From Microbacterium sp. cf332 (GTDB lineage: Bacteria; Actinomycetota; Actinomycetes; Actinomycetales; Microbacteriaceae): DNA of 64,000 nucleotides. Where the stretch lies: contig NZ_FNKN01000001.1 of assembly GCF_900102175.1 (NCBI RefSeq), forward strand, positions 124,001 through 188,000, in the 5' to 3' direction. Both the position numbers and the translations under genes were made by a program. Each line of letters begins with the position of its first letter. The first letter of the stretch is position 1. The notes beneath the pieces were generated by a model, which did no database searches, had not been told where the DNA came from, and was given only the letters and a program-made list of their open reading frames with translations. Shown here in pieces: positions 13,114 to 23,757 of the stretch.

Positions 13114-13662
13114 TCAGGCGGTCTGGCCCGCGTGCTGACCCTCCTCGATCTCCTCGATCACCTTCGCATTGAAGGCGGGGAGGTCGTCGGGAGTGCGGCT
13201 CGAGACCAGGCCCTGGTCGACGTGCACCTCTTCGTCCACCCACGTCGCCCCCGCGTTGACGAGGTCGGTGCGCAGGCTGGGGAAGCTCGTCAGGGTGCGG
13301 CCCGACAGCACATCGGCCTCCGTGAGGATCCACGCGGCGTGGCAGATGGCGCCGACTGGCTTGTGCTGCTCGAAGAACGCCCGCGCGAAGTCCACGGCGT
13401 TGGTGTCGAGGCGCAGGTTGTCGGCGTTCACGACGCCACCCGGCAGGACGAGGGCATCGTACTCGTCGGCCTCGGCATCGGCCGTGACGACGTCGACTTT
13501 CTGCGCATGGCCGTTCTTGCCCGTGATCTCGCCCGACTCCGGCGCGATGAGGACGACGGTGGCACCGGCGTCGGAGACAGCCTGCCAGGGTGAGGTCAGC
13601 TCGCTGTCCTCGAAGCCGTCGGTTGCCAGGAATGCGATCTTCTTGCCATCGAGAGTGCTCAT
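13114..13662 (-). CDS. DJ-1/PfpI family protein (type 1 glutamine amidotransferase-like)
   Basis: 182 residues. The nucleophile elbow is GAICHAAWIL, with the conserved Cys followed by His; the upstream acidic residue is in DGFEDSEL and the fold marker is LVLPGGVVNADNLR. Members act as proteases, glyoxalases/deglycases or stress chaperones; for the closest bacterial type (YhbO/PfpI) detoxification of reactive carbonyls is proposed. ATG 13662 was chosen; the open frame upstream to 13764 has no support. It is divergent from the cysteine-rich microprotein. Confidence 0.88.
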   Translation of the reverse strand: MSTLDGKKIAFLATDGFEDSELTSPWQAVSDAGATVVLIAPESGEITGKNGHAQKVDVVTADAEADEYDALVLPGGVVNADNLRLDTNAVDFARAFFEQHKPVGAICHAAWILTEADVLSGRTLTSFPSLRTDLVNAGATWVDEEVHVDQGLVSSRTPDDLPAFNAKVIEEIEEGQHAGQTA

Positions 13663-13739
13663 GTGCCCGACGCTACGCACACCCTTCCGCGCCGGCGACG
13701 CGGTTGACAGGTGAGGCGACGCATGGTCATGCGCGGGGT

Positions 13740-13745
13740 TACGAT
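13740..13745 (+). promoter_or_regulatory. -10-like TACGAT, leaderless type, before Cys-rich microprotein
   Basis: TACGAT ends exactly 6 bases before ATG 13752. There is no ribosome site in between. Confidence 0.4.
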
Positions 13746-13751
13746 GGCGAT

Positions 13752-13880
13752 ATGTCCACCGCATCCACGCCCCAGACGCAGACCCTGCAGCCGGTTCCCG
13801 ACGAGAAGAACCTGCTGCTCACCGCCACCGACGACGCAGCCGCCTCGTGCTGCGGCGGGGGATGCTGCTCGACGTCGTGA
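13752..13880 (+). CDS. Cysteine-rich microprotein, 42 residues
   Basis: A short frame from ATG 13752 reads MSTASTPQTQTLQPVPDEKN, then LLLTATDDAAASCCGGGCC and STS. The four cysteines sit in a CCxxxCC tail suited to binding a soft metal (Cu, Zn, As). The sequence, a -10-like box at leaderless distance and a strong terminator right after the stop together suggest a real monocistronic gene. I do not recognise the family; function unknown. It lies between divergent pfpI and the convergent drug exporter. Confidence 0.6.
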   Translation: MSTASTPQTQTLQPVPDEKNLLLTATDDAAASCCGGGCCSTS

Positions 13881-13904
13881 GACCTCGCGCCCGGGAGGGC
13901 GTAT

Positions 13905-13944
13905 GACGAAGCCGCCGGTGCGCGATGCGCCCGGCGGCTTCGTC
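13905..13944. terminator. Strong bidirectional hairpin between the microprotein and the exporter
   Basis: Perfect 14-bp stem, GACGAAGCCGCCGG (13905-13918) and CCGGCGGCTTCGTC (13931-13944), 12-base loop, followed by GTT. It begins 24 bases after the microprotein stop and 20 bases from the stop of the convergent exporter gene. Confidence 0.8.
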
Positions 13945-13964
13945 GTTCCCTGGTCGTGACCGGG

Positions 13965-15479
13965 TCAGTGCCCGGCCGGTGCTCCCTCGGGGCTGTCGGC
14001 CGGCTTGCGGATGAGCAGCGCCCCGATGATCAGCGGCGAAGCGATGATCGCGGCGACGAGGAACGCCGAGCGGGCGCCCGCCGCTCCGGCGGCGACCGAC
14101 GCCGGGTCGGCCGTTCCCGCCTGGGCGGCGGCCATGACGGTGATGAGGAGGGCGATACCCGCGGCGCCCGCGACCTGCTGCATCGTCGAGACGATCGCGC
14201 TGCCGTAGGAGTAGAACCGTGGCTGCAGCGAGCCGAGCGACGCCGTGAAGAGCGGTGTGAACGACATCGCGAGCCCGAGCGACAGCACGGTCTGGAGCGA
14301 CAGCAGCAGCCAGACCGAGGTGTTCTCGGTCAGCGTCGTGAAGGTCCACAGGATGCCGGTGACGAGCAGCGCGCCCGGAACGAGCAGCACACGCGTGCCC
14401 CATCTGTCGTAGACGCGGCCGATGAACGGCCCCGCGATACCCATCGCGAGAGAGCCGGGCAGCACGACCAGTCCGGACTCGAGCGCCGAGAGCTGAAGGA
14501 CGTTCTGCATGTAGAGCGGCAGGAGCGTGATCGCACCGAAGAAGGCCATCGACATGACGGCGAGCTGCGCGACCGACAGCGAGAAGTTGGCCGAGCGGAA
14601 GACTCGCAGGTCGAGCAGCGCCTCGTCGGTGCGCTGCAGCCGGAGTTGCCGCCACACGAAGGCGCCCAGGGCGAGGACACCGACGGTCAGGGCGACGATG
14701 AGCGGCAGGTTCGACGGGGCGGCGGCGGCCGCGGCATCCCCGCCTCCATGCCCCCCGGCGCCGATCTGGCTGAGCCCGAAGACGATCCCGCCGAAGCCGA
14801 ATGCCGACAGGACCACCGAGAGGACATCGAGCGGGGCACGCCGGGTCTCGCCCAGGTTGTGGATCCAGCGCACGCCGATCGCGAGTGAGACGAGTGCGAT
14901 CGGGAGCACGACGCCGAAGATCCAGCGCCAGCTCAGGGTGTCGAGGAGGAAGCCCGACAGCGTCGGCCCGATCGCGGGCGCGAGCGACATCACGATGCTG
15001 ACGCGGCCCATCATCCGCCCTCGCGCATGCGGCGGGACGACGGTCATGAGCGTCGTCATGAGCAGCGGCATCATGATCGCCGTGCCCGAGGCCTGCACGA
15101 CCCGAGCCACGAGCAGCACCTCGAACCCGGGGGCGAGCACGGCGATCAGCGTGCCGGTCGCGAACAGGCTCATGGCCGCGGTGAAGACCGCGCGCGTCGT
15201 GAAGCGCTGGAGGAGGAAGCCGGTGATGGGGATGACCACGGCCATCGTGAGCATGAACGCGGTCGTCAGCCACTGGGCGGCGACGGCGGTGATGCCGAAG
15301 TCGACGATGAGGTGCGGGATCGCGACGCCCATCGTCGTCTCGTTGAGGATCGCCACGAACGCCGCCACCAGCAGGAGCCAGATGACGCGGTTCGCTTCGG
15401 CGGTGACGACCGTCGGGACAGCCGGTGGGCCGGCGGTCTCGGATGCGGTGGTGGAGGACGGCGCGACGGCCATGGGCAA
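13965..15479 (-). CDS. DHA2-family (EmrB/QacA-like) MFS drug exporter
   Basis: 504 residues, with about 14 membrane helices as in the DHA2 family. Motif A-like GRMMGRVS is between helices 2/3 and the family-typical start LLLVAAFVAILNETTMGVAIPHLI is at residues ~35-58, with conserved Asn-Glu in helix 1; motif C appears as LAPAIGPTLSGFLLD. It exports toxic cations or drugs by proton antiport. A Gly/Ala/His loop (GAGGHGGGDAAAAAAP) breaks the middle. ATG 15479 or ATG 15473. No TetR/MarR regulator adjoins it. Confidence 0.92.
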   Translation of the reverse strand: MPMAVAPSSTTASETAGPPAVPTVVTAEANRVIWLLLVAAFVAILNETTMGVAIPHLIVDFGITAVAAQWLTTAFMLTMAVVIPITGFLLQRFTTRAVFTAAMSLFATGTLIAVLAPGFEVLLVARVVQASGTAIMMPLLMTTLMTVVPPHARGRMMGRVSIVMSLAPAIGPTLSGFLLDTLSWRWIFGVVLPIALVSLAIGVRWIHNLGETRRAPLDVLSVVLSAFGFGGIVFGLSQIGAGGHGGGDAAAAAAPSNLPLIVALTVGVLALGAFVWRQLRLQRTDEALLDLRVFRSANFSLSVAQLAVMSMAFFGAITLLPLYMQNVLQLSALESGLVVLPGSLAMGIAGPFIGRVYDRWGTRVLLVPGALLVTGILWTFTTLTENTSVWLLLSLQTVLSLGLAMSFTPLFTASLGSLQPRFYSYGSAIVSTMQQVAGAAGIALLITVMAAAQAGTADPASVAAGAAGARSAFLVAAIIASPLIIGALLIRKPADSPEGAPAGH

Positions 15480-15607: not shown

Positions 15608-16564
15608 TCACCAGAGCCGGGCGATGTCCCACAGCTCGGCGATCTCGGGGTCGACGGGACGGTGGCTCGCTGCGCGACCCCGGAACTCACGCACGAGGGC
15701 GCCGACGCGTCGGCGGTAGTCGGGATCGGGATGCGTCGTGGCGATGCGCACGAGCGGCGGGATGTCCATGTCGAGCACGAGGCGCACCCGTGCGTCGGCC
15801 GCCGCTTGCGCGTCGGCGGCATCGAGCACCGCCAACCCGGCCCGCAGCGCTTCCGCGTAGTCCGCGAGCACGCCCACCTGAGCGCGGTGCTGGGTGATCG
15901 ACGAACCGTCGGCCCGTTCGCGCCACTGGACGACGACGTCGGGGATGACGTCGAACGCGCGCGCACGGGTGTACATCTGCTGGGCGACGAGCTGGTCCTC
16001 GTAGAGTCGCTCCTCGGGGAAGCGCAGGCGGTTGCGCCGCCAGAACTCGATGCGACTCGCTTTCGACCAGGCGACGATGTTGCCCGACGCCTGCGGGTGC
16101 GCGGCCAGGGTCGTGCCGACGCGGGCGGGATCGGTCGACGCCGCGACCCACGGCTGCACCGGACCGGGGACGTACCCCTCGTCCGTCGGCCGGAGGCGGA
16201 CGTACGCGCCCGCGACGAAGTCCGAGCCGGAGGCGTCGAGGGTCTCGACCCACCGTTCGAGCGCGATGGGGGTGAGCACGTCGTCGCCGTCGAGGAATGC
16301 CACGAGGGGTGTCTCCACCCGGTCGAGGCCGACGTTCCGCGCCGCACCGAGACCGACCGGGCGGGGGTGCGTGACGACGCGGAACCGGTCGTCCGCCGCG
16401 GCCGCCTCGGCGAAGATGCGTCCGGTCGCGTCGCGCGAACCGTCGTCGATCAGGACCGCCGTCCAGGCGGGGAGGGTCTGCCGCCGGAGCGAATCGAGCG
16501 CTTCCGCCGCGTACGGGGCGATGTCGCGGCCGGGGACGATGACGGTGACGACGGGCGAGCTCAC
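15608..16564 (-). CDS. Family 2 glycosyltransferase, last gene of the nad operon
   Basis: 318 residues, GT-A fold. The start VTVIVPGRDIAPYAAEALDS gives the nucleotide-binding strand, followed by VLIDDGSRDATG, GLGAARNVGLD and the DxD metal site FLDGDDVL. The C-terminal half contains ERLYEDQLVAQQMY, which may hold the catalytic acidic residues. It transfers a sugar to an unknown acceptor, perhaps in teichoic acid or other wall polymers. The GTG start at 16564 overlaps the nifS stop by 4 bases (GTGA), so it is co-translated with the NAD genes although no metabolic link is obvious. Confidence 0.85.
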   Translation of the reverse strand: MSSPVVTVIVPGRDIAPYAAEALDSLRRQTLPAWTAVLIDDGSRDATGRIFAEAAAADDRFRVVTHPRPVGLGAARNVGLDRVETPLVAFLDGDDVLTPIALERWVETLDASGSDFVAGAYVRLRPTDEGYVPGPVQPWVAASTDPARVGTTLAAHPQASGNIVAWSKASRIEFWRRNRLRFPEERLYEDQLVAQQMYTRARAFDVIPDVVVQWRERADGSSITQHRAQVGVLADYAEALRAGLAVLDAADAQAAADARVRLVLDMDIPPLVRIATTHPDPDYRRRVGALVREFRGRAASHRPVDPEIAELWDIARLW

Positions 16565-17691
16565 GAGCCCGATCGTACTGCCGCCACCGCGTCCGCCACG
16601 GCGTCGGCGAGCGACACCGCGTGCGGGGGAGCCGCCCGGTCGAAGCTGAAGCGCACGGCGGTCCGGGCGTCGTCGTCGTCGAGTCCGATCGCGGTCAGCA
16701 CGTGCGAGGCCTCGTCGCTGCCGGCGGCGCAGGCCGACCCGCTGCTCGTGACGATCCCGCGCCGTTCGAGCTCGAGCAGCACGGCCTCGCCCGACGTCGC
16801 GGCGAAGGCGAACGAGGCGTGTCCGGGCAGGCGGCGCACCGGGTCGCCGGTCACGCGCGCCCCGGGCACGACCGCGAGCACCTGGCTCGTGAACGCATCG
16901 CGCACGGATGCGGCCCGCGCCGCGGCGTCCGCGCGCTCGCTCTCCGCGAGCTCCAGGGCCAGCGCGAGCCCGACGGCACCCGCGACGTTCTGCGTGCCGG
17001 AACGGCGGCCCCGTTCCTGACCGCCGCCGTGCAACAACGGCTCGAGCGGCAGCCGGCCGCGTACGCCCAGCAGGCCCACGCCCTGCGGGGCACCGATCTT
17101 GTGCCCGGCGATCGAGATGGCCGCCGCGCCCGTCGCCGCGAGGTCGAGCCAGCCGGCGGCTTGAACGGCGTCGACGTGCACGGGCGTGCCGTGGACCGCG
17201 CGCGCGATCCCGGCGACGTCCTGCACGGTGCCGATCTCGTTGTTGGCATATCCGACGCTCACGACCGTGGTGTCGTCGCGAACGGCAGCGGCGACGGCGT
17301 CCGGCTCGACCCGTCCGCCGCCGTCGACGGGGAGGACGTCGAGGGCGTAGCCGTGCATCCGTTCGAGGTACCGGCACACGGCGAGCACGGAGTCGTGCTC
17401 GACGGCCGTCGTCACGATGTGGCCGGGGGTGCGTCCTCGAGCGCCCAGCGAGATGCCTGCGACGGCGAGGTTGTTCGCCTCGGTGCCGCCCGACGTGAAC
17501 ACGATGTCGCCGGGCCGCATCCCGAGGACTGCCGCTGCACGCCGCCGCGCGTCCTCGAGCGCGGCGGAGACGTCCTCACCGACCGTGTGCACGCTCGAGG
17601 GGTTCCCGAACCGTCCGGTGAGGAACGGCGCCATGGCCTCCAGCACCTCACGGCGCACCGGCCCGCCCGCGGCGTGATCGAGATAGAGCAT
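16561..17691 (-). CDS. nifS: NifS/IscS-type cysteine desulfurase of the nad operon
   Basis: 376 residues. PLP enzyme taking sulfur from cysteine to build Fe-S clusters. The start MLYLDHAAGGPVRREVLEA is typical; PLP-binding motifs are TSGGTEANNLA, VEHDS and the lysine in SIAGHKIGAPQG. The persulfide-forming cysteine is in SSGSACAAGSDEASHVL, a short type II/NifS-like loop. ATG 17691 overlaps the nadC stop by one base pattern ATGA. Its place directly after nadABC suggests a dedicated sulfur supply for the [4Fe-4S] cluster of NadA, as proposed for nad-linked nifS genes in other bacteria. Confidence 0.94.
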   Translation of the reverse strand: MLYLDHAAGGPVRREVLEAMAPFLTGRFGNPSSVHTVGEDVSAALEDARRRAAAVLGMRPGDIVFTSGGTEANNLAVAGISLGARGRTPGHIVTTAVEHDSVLAVCRYLERMHGYALDVLPVDGGGRVEPDAVAAAVRDDTTVVSVGYANNEIGTVQDVAGIARAVHGTPVHVDAVQAAGWLDLAATGAAAISIAGHKIGAPQGVGLLGVRGRLPLEPLLHGGGQERGRRSGTQNVAGAVGLALALELAESERADAAARAASVRDAFTSQVLAVVPGARVTGDPVRRLPGHASFAFAATSGEAVLLELERRGIVTSSGSACAAGSDEASHVLTAIGLDDDDARTAVRFSFDRAAPPHAVSLADAVADAVAAVRSGS

Positions 17692-18551
17692 CAGGGCGCG
17701 TCGACGACGAGGTCGAGGCCGAGATCGAGCGCCGGTGCGGAGTGGGTGAGCGCCCCCACCGAGATCACGTCGACCCCCGTCTCGGCGATCACGCGCACCG
17801 TGGCCAGCGATACGCCGCCCGAGGCTTCGACGGTCGCGCGACCGGCGACCATCTCCACACCGCGGCGGAGGTCCGCGGGCGAGAAGTTGTCGAGCATGAT
17901 CGTGTCGATGCCGGCCGCGAGGACGGGCTCGATCTGATCGATGCGGTCCACCTCCACCTCGACATGCGCGGTGTGGGGGAGTTCCGCCATCGCGCGCCGC
18001 AGGGCCTCGGTCAGGCCGGTGCCGTCGGCGGTCATGACGCCGAGGTGGTTGTCCTTGAGCATGACGGCGTCCGAGAGTGAGAACCGATGGTTCCGGCCGC
18101 CGCCGTCGCGCACGGCCTGGCGCTCGACGGCCCGCAGGCCCGGTGTCGTCTTGCGCGTGTCGGCAATGCGCGCGCCGGTGCCGGCGACGGCATCGACGTA
18201 CGCCCGGGTGAGGGTCGCGATGCCCGACATCCGCTGGGCGAAGTTCAGTCCTACCCGTTCCGCCGTGAGCACCGCGCGGGCGGGGCCGCGGACGACGGCG
18301 AGCGTCTGACCCGCATGGATCGTCGCGCCGTCCGGCACCGTCACGACGACTTCGCACGTCGGGTCGGTGAGCGAGAAAGCGGCCGCGAAGACGGCGCCGC
18401 CGCTGAAGACCCCGGAGACGCGTGAGACGAGCTCCGCCGTCGCCCGGGCCGTCTCGGGGACGAATGCGCTGCTCGTGAGATCCCCCCACGGTGCGTCTTC
18501 GTCGAGGGCCGCGGTCACGACCGCGTCGATGTGGCGGGCCGAGAGCATCAT
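17691..18551 (-). CDS. nadC: Quinolinate phosphoribosyltransferase (carboxylating)
   Basis: 286 residues, full length. It converts quinolinate and PRPP to nicotinate mononucleotide with release of CO2. Family signatures: EDAPWGDLTS, the SGIATLTRAYVDAV helix, ADTRKTTPGLRAVERQAVRDGGG (given here in two parts: ADTRKTTPGLRA and VERQAVRDGGGRNHR), MLKDNHLG and the phosphate site VEASGGV. Starts at ATG 18551 or the next codon; the ATGATGA overlap with the nadB stop couples translation. Third step enzyme of the pathway encoded in this operon. Confidence 0.97.
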   Translation of the reverse strand: MMLSARHIDAVVTAALDEDAPWGDLTSSAFVPETARATAELVSRVSGVFSGGAVFAAAFSLTDPTCEVVVTVPDGATIHAGQTLAVVRGPARAVLTAERVGLNFAQRMSGIATLTRAYVDAVAGTGARIADTRKTTPGLRAVERQAVRDGGGRNHRFSLSDAVMLKDNHLGVMTADGTGLTEALRRAMAELPHTAHVEVEVDRIDQIEPVLAAGIDTIMLDNFSPADLRRGVEMVAGRATVEASGGVSLATVRVIAETGVDVISVGALTHSAPALDLGLDLVVDAP

Positions 18552-20140
18552 GCGACCTTTCCGGTCGGGGTCGTCCTGATCGCCGCAGCGGACGCGGTAG
18601 CGGTGTCGGCGTCGGCGTCAGTGTCGGTGTCGGTGCGGTGGTGCGCCCCGACCGATGCGGTGCGGGCGAGCGCCGCGGCGGTGACGGCCCGGGCGACGGC
18701 GAGGAGGTTGGCGTCCTCGTGTTCGCGGTGGTCACGGGCCGGCGGCAGCGACTCCGTCCACGCGTCGATCGTCGCCCGTGCGCTCGTCAGGCCGTCGGCG
18801 TCGCGGTCGAGACCGACGTGACGCCACATGAGCGCCTGGAGCGCTTCACGGGAGAACGCCGCAGCGATCGGTGCGGCGCCCCTCGCCCCGGGCGGGCCGG
18901 CGACCGGCGCGGGGACGACGGCGGGGGGACGCCGGTGCAGGGGGATCGCGGCGTGTGCGCGGTCGGCGGCGACGGCGCGGCCGGTCCGTATCCCGAACAC
19001 GACCGCCTCCAGAAGGGAGTTCGAGGCGAGGCGATTGGCCCCGTGGACGCCGGTGCGCGCGACCTCACCGACCGCGAAGAGGCCGCCGAGGTCGGTGCGT
19101 CCGTCGAGGTCGGTGACGACCCCGCCCATCGCATAGTGGGCAGCGGGGGTGACAGGCACCGGGTGCCGGGCCCAGTCCCATCCGCGGCCGCGGACCGCAC
19201 GGTCGATCGTCGGGAACCGCTCCGCCAGGAACGTCGCCGTCGCGGCGGGGGTGCTGCGGAGTCCCGAGGCGTCGAGCAGTACGGGACGCCCGTCCTGCGC
19301 CCGCATCGTCGCGGCGATGGCGCGGGCCACGACATCGCGAGGTGCGAGCTCCGCGTCGGGATGGGCCGCGAGGCAGAAGCGCCGTCCCTGCTCGTCGAAC
19401 AGGACGGCTCCCTCGCCGCGCACCGCCTCCGACACCAGCGTGCCGTCGTCGAGGACCGTGGGGTGGAACTGCACGAACTCGAGGTCGGCCACGCGCGCTC
19501 CGGCCCGGAGGGCCAGGGCGATCCCGTCGCCGGTGGCCACGGCCGGGTTCGTCGTATGGGCGTACAGACGCCCCGCGCCGCCGGTGGCGAGCACGACGGC
19601 ATCCGCCTCGATCGCCTCCTCGCGACCGTCCGCCAGGACGCGGACGCCCCGGACGGCGCCTTCCGCGACCAGCAGCTCGGTCACGAAGGACGCGGTTCGG
19701 GTCTCGATATCGGCGGCGGCGAGCGCTCGGGCCACGGCGAGCTGGATCGCGGCACCCGTCGCGTCGCCGCCGGCGTGCAGGATGCGGGGGCGACCGTGGG
19801 CGCCCTCGAGGCCGAGTCTCGGCGCGCCGGTCGCATCATGGTCGAAATCGACTCCGAGCGCACGGAGGGCCGCGATCGCCTCCGGGCCCGACGACGTGAG
19901 CATCTCCACCGCGTCGCGCTCGCCGAGACCGGCTCCGGCGCGCAGGGTGTCCTCGGCGTGCGCGGCGGCCGAGTCGCCCGGCGCCACCGCTGCGGCTATC
20001 CCGCCCTGGGCGTACGCCGTGTTGCCGCCATCGACGGCGCCTTTCGTGACGACCATCACCTCGCAGCCGGCCCGCACCGCGGAGAGGGCGGCCATGCCGC
20101 CGGCCAGGCCGGACCCCACGACGACGATGCGGCGGGTCAC
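18548..20140 (-). CDS. nadB: L-aspartate oxidase
   Basis: 530 residues. This FAD flavoprotein oxidises aspartate to iminoaspartate, the NadA substrate. FAD-binding VVVGSGLAGGMAALSA is at the N-terminus; further motifs are GGNTAYAQGGIAAA, the active-site region FVQFHPTVLDDG, and PAAHYAMGGVVTDLDG with GEVARTGVHGANRLASNSL. GTG 20140 overlaps the nadA stop (GTGA). The C-terminal ~35 residues after AALARTASVGAHH are a low-complexity Thr-Asp-Ala run (TDTDTDADADTATAS) coded by a hexamer-like repeat and are not part of the conserved fold. Confidence 0.96.
   Translation of the reverse strand: MTRRIVVVGSGLAGGMAALSAVRAGCEVMVVTKGAVDGGNTAYAQGGIAAAVAPGDSAAAHAEDTLRAGAGLGERDAVEMLTSSGPEAIAALRALGVDFDHDATGAPRLGLEGAHGRPRILHAGGDATGAAIQLAVARALAAADIETRTASFVTELLVAEGAVRGVRVLADGREEAIEADAVVLATGGAGRLYAHTTNPAVATGDGIALALRAGARVADLEFVQFHPTVLDDGTLVSEAVRGEGAVLFDEQGRRFCLAAHPDAELAPRDVVARAIAATMRAQDGRPVLLDASGLRSTPAATATFLAERFPTIDRAVRGRGWDWARHPVPVTPAAHYAMGGVVTDLDGRTDLGGLFAVGEVARTGVHGANRLASNSLLEAVVFGIRTGRAVAADRAHAAIPLHRRPPAVVPAPVAGPPGARGAAPIAAAFSREALQALMWRHVGLDRDADGLTSARATIDAWTESLPPARDHREHEDANLLAVARAVTAAALARTASVGAHHRTDTDTDADADTATASAAAIRTTPTGKVA
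18596..18634 (-). repeat. Hexamer microsatellite inside the nadB 3' end
   Basis: Degenerate tandem units of GTCGGC/GTCAGT/GTCGGT (plus strand) encode the alternating Thr-Asp/Ala-Asp tail of NadB. In-frame unit gain or loss would change only the tail length. Confidence 0.6.
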
Positions 20141-23550: not shown

Positions 23551-23579
23551 GATCGCGCAACTGAAGACAGGCCGCATGA

Positions 23580-23757
23580 CGCACGCGGGAGAGCCCCGGA
23601 GCAATCCGGGCACCGAAGGAGCAAGCCTCCCCGCCAATCTCTCAGGTCCGCGTACCGCGCGCGTCCGGCCGCTCTGGAAAGCGATCCCCTCGGGGATCCG
23701 CCGACGGTGAAAGCCGGGCTCGCCCGGTGAAACTCTCAGGCCCAAGACAGAGGGGGA
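23580..23757 (+). ncRNA. Tandem glycine riboswitch
   Basis: Two successive glycine aptamers precede gcvT. The first contains GGGAGAGCC, ACCGAAGGAGCAA and AATCTCTCAGG (23586-23645); the second contains TCTGGAAAGCG, GACGGTGAAAGCC and GTGAAACTCTCAGG with GACAGAGGGGG (23673-23756). These are the conserved gcvT-element blocks known to bind glycine. In actinobacteria binding normally turns expression on. About 50 bases separate the second aptamer from gcvT. Confidence 0.92.

Follow-up and report, generated by a model that had tools for sequence, protein, structure and literature searches.

The window, a 64,000-nucleotide stretch of a Microbacterium sp. cf332 contig, contains a 42-codon frame between two genes of the opposite strand. 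The features that matter here are as follows.

13114 to 13662, minus strand: DJ-1/PfpI gene (Pfam DJ-1_PfpI), divergent, a neighbour in some genomes only.
13740 to 13745, plus strand: -10 element TACGAT, 6 nt 5' of the ATG, kept as TANNNT in 70/70 loci chosen by similarity.
13752 to 13880, plus strand: small-protein ORF of 42 codons, MSTASTPQTQTLQPVPDEKNLLLTATDDAAASCCGGGCCSTS, identified by sequence reading, tblastn and profile matches, and pS versus pN.
13785 to 13817, plus strand: hydrophobic stretch L12-Q-P ... N20-L-L, 5' of the cysteine codons, seen in alignments A1, A4 and A5 and in fused tails.
13851 to 13868, plus strand: codons of C34-G-G-G-C-C39, a C-x4-C redox motif, present in A4 and in 69/70 similarity-chosen loci.
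13903 to 13946, plus strand: strong hairpin between convergent genes, a probable bidirectional terminator without a U-run (fold; U-tract terminator scan negative).
13965 to 15479, minus strand: MFS transporter gene (Pfam MFS_1, searched on 13965-15470), convergent, a constant neighbour in Microbacterium.

The frame opens with ATG at 13752 and closes with TGA at 13878-13880, and the hexamer TACGAT lies six bases before the ATG, just as the first-pass annotation had recorded. The peptide does not end at CCGGGCC, as had been written there; the window sequence reads on to CCGGGCCSTS. The predicted transcription start is the first base of the ATG. A TANNNT box precedes the in-frame ATG by 6 or 7 nt at all 70 loci chosen by similarity only (30/30 and 40/40), compared with 212 of 11,828 ATGs (1.8%) in the same set of loci; the loci come from one genus and are related, so this count does not represent independent events. 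Loci from the scans of the MFS flank, which required cysteine motifs and a -10 box, and from one further gathering that required cysteine motifs were kept out of it. A separate scoring of loci gave a box in 104/104, with a scheme that favours box-bearing candidates and after a motif filter had dropped 3 of 107 loci. The sigma-70 scan detected no promoter with a -35 element, so the -10 box is the sole basis of the promoter assignment. The upstream TTGACA was rejected as a -35 element, since it lies 30 nt away from the -10. By eye, a second leaderless-type start is visible at the DJ-1/PfpI gene, with TAGCGT 7 nt before its ATG (13663-13675, minus strand).

Homologous frames, whose absence from related genomes was to have counted against the gene, were found by tblastn across the genus Microbacterium. 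Among species-named genomes, all 19 loci with relatives of the peptide belong to Microbacterium, with M. thalli the nearest. Mean pS is 0.42 and mean pN 0.17 over 575 overlapping, non-independent pairs, and the small frame is under protein-level selection. Together with the 70/70 boxes, this bears out the proposal of a real, stand-alone, leaderless-type small protein. The small gene is present in about 132 of the 149 sampled Microbacterium-genus genomes, as judged by profile search with doubtful matches read. Profile A4 matched 139/149 genomes at E<=0.1, from which we removed G026, G050, G057, G100, G111, G115, G140 (E >0.01) and G142 (read, no candidate) and to which we added G004 (139 - 8 + 1 = 132); the remaining matches were not all read one by one. 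The A4 matches in G140 and G057 were rejected on reading. The window peptide has no match in Pfam or NCBIfam, and neither do 10 variants in NCBIfam and 6 variants in Pfam. A phage or plasmid origin was rejected, as searches of phages and plasmids gave no match and none was confirmed in viral contigs. Matches in distant phyla (genus g157 and others) proved on reading to be unrelated longer proteins.

The first-pass annotation had read the four cysteines as suggesting metal binding, and a four-cysteine metal site finds no support here. C34 and C39 are the only pair of the four that is kept, and in anatomy the peptide comes closest to the redox tail of FrnE, which also has C-x4-C. The C-x4-C spacing is found in 69 of the 70 similarity-chosen loci, the exception being L160 of genome G067, where it is lost. 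Alignment A4, with 68 motif-filtered rows, has three invariant positions, Met1, Cys34 and Cys39; these rows are what remains of 74 representatives after six near-duplicates or odd rows were removed by hand, including the CACGGCGC tail of L153.

The hairpin begins about 23 nt 3' of the stop and folds at -43.9 kcal/mol (z -5.1), a value equalled by none of 200 shuffles. It lacks a U-run, however, and a scan for terminator patterns gave no match; lying between convergent genes, it may act for the two of them. The convergent MFS gene lies downstream at 19/19 wide loci and at 37 of 40 more, the remainder being one contig end and two loci with DJ-1 only. It is also present in 30/30 genomes without an A1 match, and a scan that demanded a -10 box and cysteines found a leaderless-type Cys-tail ORF near it in 24 of these 30. 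Variable genes lie between or beyond: DJ-1/PfpI and, named by reading, Fpg/Nei-like, small membrane protein and carboxymuconolactone-decarboxylase-like genes. Across loci L167 to L177 and the window-type loci these genes switch sides or come and go, while the small gene and the MFS gene are constant. Beyond the MFS gene the flank is also syntenic, with ABC transporter and NAD genes; within the window, the translation of a frame at about 16561-18735 (minus strand) resembles, on reading, a NifS-like cysteine desulfurase, and the stretch around it shows synteny with NAD biosynthesis genes. The Rfam scan of the window returned a tandem pair of glycine riboswitch aptamers at 23576-23757 on the plus strand (RF00504, two matches) and nothing else.

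This layout bears on a cysteine-responsive attenuator of the mycobacterial type, for which polycysteine leaderless short ORFs are known (Canestrari 2020, as cited in PMC9031893). The window gene resembles these in its leaderless-type start, here by -10 position only, and in its adjacent Cys codons. It differs in having no downstream operon, in the conservation of the full-length peptide and in relatives that pair it with FrnE. The next gene in the window is on the opposite strand, and an attenuator was dropped at this locus for want of a same-strand downstream gene, as the first-pass annotation had also concluded. A same-strand 4-TM-like gene downstream is one layout among several elsewhere, the whole peptide is under selection and cysteine number varies. 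We regard attenuation as extremely unlikely.

Outside Microbacterium, a family profile search placed distant tails of this kind directly 3' of a DsbA-family FrnE gene with a CPWC motif, which matches Pfam DSBA at E 2e-42. At 60 further Microbacteriaceae FrnE loci, drawn from 94 genomes with FrnE, a tiny C-x4-C ORF sits at the FrnE stop in 39, and 33 of these overlap FrnE by a 4-nt start/stop; shuffled downstream DNA gave 0.38 such ORFs on average (max 2) and 0.05 with the 4-nt overlap. None of the 60 has a fused tail, and 21 show neither state. At the class level, 28 newly fetched FrnE loci comprise 5 fused tails (C-x4-C in L276, L277, L279 and L290, C-x5-C in L286), 5 with a separate ORF (outside Microbacteriaceae in L269, L273 and L275) and 18 with neither, a few of which still have a single cysteine or cysteines at odd spacing (L278, L285). 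The sequences show the tail in three settings: joined to FrnE, in a tiny ORF at the FrnE stop and, in Microbacterium, in a remote leaderless-type gene beside the MFS gene.

Profile comparisons point to a possible link between these states. A1 and A2 match with a probability of 97.9 (E 4e-13). The Microbacterium profile A4 matches the FrnE-adjacent profile A5 with a probability of 94.9 (E 4e-8), and A5 matches the fused tails of A6 with 87.6 (E 4e-6); these tails are brief and offer little sequence information, and both scores are inflated by rows collected with cysteine-motif filters, in A4 and A5 for the first comparison and in A5 for the second. A4 and A6 are related only through the chain A4-A5, A5-A6. 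Among proteins of known structure, S. coelicolor SCO1869 (PDB 3gl5) aligns to its end, through ACGPDGCAV, and D. radiodurans FrnE (DR_0659, PDB 5cnw/5cp1) aligns, as 5cnw, through its PLTMLG stretch. Their tails share with the window peptide a C-x4-C near the C-terminus, a hydrophobic P-L-x-x-L-G-like stretch before the cysteines (P-L-x-x-L-G is how it reads in the FrnE-linked tails) and the association with a CPWC enzyme of the DsbA family. They differ in being a covalent part of FrnE, whereas the window encodes a 42-residue protein with its own promoter.

The FrnE tail acts between molecules in crystals. According to section 2.4 of PMC8945050, the 239-CXXXXC-244 motif of one D. radiodurans FrnE molecule sits at the active site of another, and a Cys244-Cys22 disulfide joins the two. 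Without the tail cysteines, TrxR-dependent DTNB reduction is lower, and regeneration of the active site is the role proposed there for the tail. FrnE of S. roseofulvus and D. maricopensis is described in PMC8945050 as being without any tail, so the tail is not obligatory. If a tail can act from one molecule on another, it could in principle also do so when made as a protein of its own.

Within Microbacterium, FrnE was found in 146/149 genomes; six have a distant form only (G026, G043, G057, G061, G142 and G148, E 1e-35 to 1e-42). We read the FrnE C-termini in 50 genomes and found 46 tail-less and 4 with a fused CGPDGC (G026, G057, G142 and G148). The separate small gene was not found in any of these four. 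They fall in one FrnE clade, so a single event may account for them; in G061, FrnE belongs to the same clade and is tail-less, and the small gene is present. In each of 20 genomes picked as small-gene carriers, FrnE lacks a tail and is without an adjacent ORF. In the window genome, FrnE ends in QVWAERSSVEAAG, without cysteines, and frnE lies about 599 kb from the small gene on the same contig. The small gene is not covalently fused to the FrnE thioredoxin domain; as a separate gene, its product was filed as a detached relative and not as an FrnE protein. In G090 the small ORF lies directly 3' of FrnE. ORFs also overlap second FrnE-like genes in G050 (CVDGVC), G140 (CVDGVC) and G033 (CADGIC), and ORFs with C-x6-C overlap the second FrnE-like gene of G080 and the only FrnE of G043. 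Such FrnE paralogues with overlapping Cys-tail ORFs, some of them C-x6-C (L347, L348, L349, L351 and L098), show the split recurring in different FrnE clades.

Taken together, these comparisons lead us to interpret the ORF at 13752-13880 as the C-terminal C-x4-C tail of FrnE encoded as a free-standing, putatively trans-acting protein, to which we assign a probability of roughly 0.78. FrnE, an oxidative-stress enzyme whose tail is built into the enzyme in many other bacteria, would thus seem to be one protein divided between two genes. Several points speak against the assignment to FrnE: the window gene is linked to the MFS gene and not to frnE, the 21/60 family and 18/28 class FrnE loci show neither state, and in nine Microbacterium genomes with a tail-less FrnE the small gene was not found (G071, G085, G089, G100, G107, G108, G111, G115 and G132).

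The first of these points could mean that the peptide serves the neighbouring MFS exporter, which accompanies it at 19/19 and 37/40 loci and in 24 of the 30 genomes negative with the first profile. However, the genes are convergent, others can intervene, and in other genera the tail accompanies FrnE. As the flank past the MFS gene is syntenic too, plain synteny is enough to explain the linkage, and we consider a role with the exporter quite unlikely. Slightly less likely still is a RiPP precursor with a Cys/Gly/Ser core: the N-terminal part is leader-like and CCGGGCCSTS would make a small core, but the gene is very widespread, no constant modifying-enzyme neighbour was recognised by eye in the wide-locus clusters, and the same tail is found fused to FrnE.

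A metal-binding or metal-sensing peptide of metallothionein type is the least improbable of the alternatives, though we hold it to be unlikely. MymT is a small bacterial metallothionein, and like such proteins the peptide is small and bears cysteines in a Cys-rich tail; it differs in having just two conserved cysteines, and tails that look homologous occur either fused to FrnE or coupled to it. The same alternative gains from an ORF in G140 (L326, G140:C2:217000-218700) with an N-terminal SCCGGGSC ahead of what reads like a copper-chaperone (HMA) domain (MTCDHC...); the tail motif may also be attached to a copper-chaperone-like protein. It also gains from FrnE itself, since PMC8945050 reports that D. 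radiodurans FrnE is cadmium-induced and its mutant cadmium-sensitive.

On the FrnE-tail interpretation, the partner of the peptide would be FrnE, a cytoplasmic disulfide oxidoreductase/reductase of the DsbA family with a CPWC active site, and the target would be the copy without a tail that is encoded about 599 kb away in the window genome. The stretch L12-Q-P ... N20-L-L is a possible docking segment, through which the peptide may bind FrnE. Cys34 and Cys39 would then exchange thiol and disulfide with the CPWC pair, and the exchange would restore oxidised FrnE to the reduced state. Like the D. radiodurans tail, which reaches from one molecule to another, the peptide would act in trans. A separate leaderless mRNA might allow tail and enzyme to be dosed independently, for instance when the cell meets oxidative or metal stress. 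We found no description of a detached FrnE tail in the open-licence PubMed Central literature.

A broader proposal, to which we give even odds, is that two genes make up the FrnE enzyme in Microbacteriaceae: a CPWC thioredoxin-fold subunit would be served by a diffusible C-x4-C peptide that shuttles electrons in trans. In Microbacterium the tail would have become an independent leaderless gene, so that the redox-regenerating part could be dosed separately, and it could re-fuse or be lost when an FrnE with a fused tail replaces the old one. The FrnE-tail assignment gives an unannotated small-protein family a testable function, and would mean that a module of the catalytic cycle of a disulfide reductase is encoded as a separate protein of 26-76 residues. 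The natural series of fused, overlapping and remote leaderless tails lets one ask why a redox tail leaves its enzyme.
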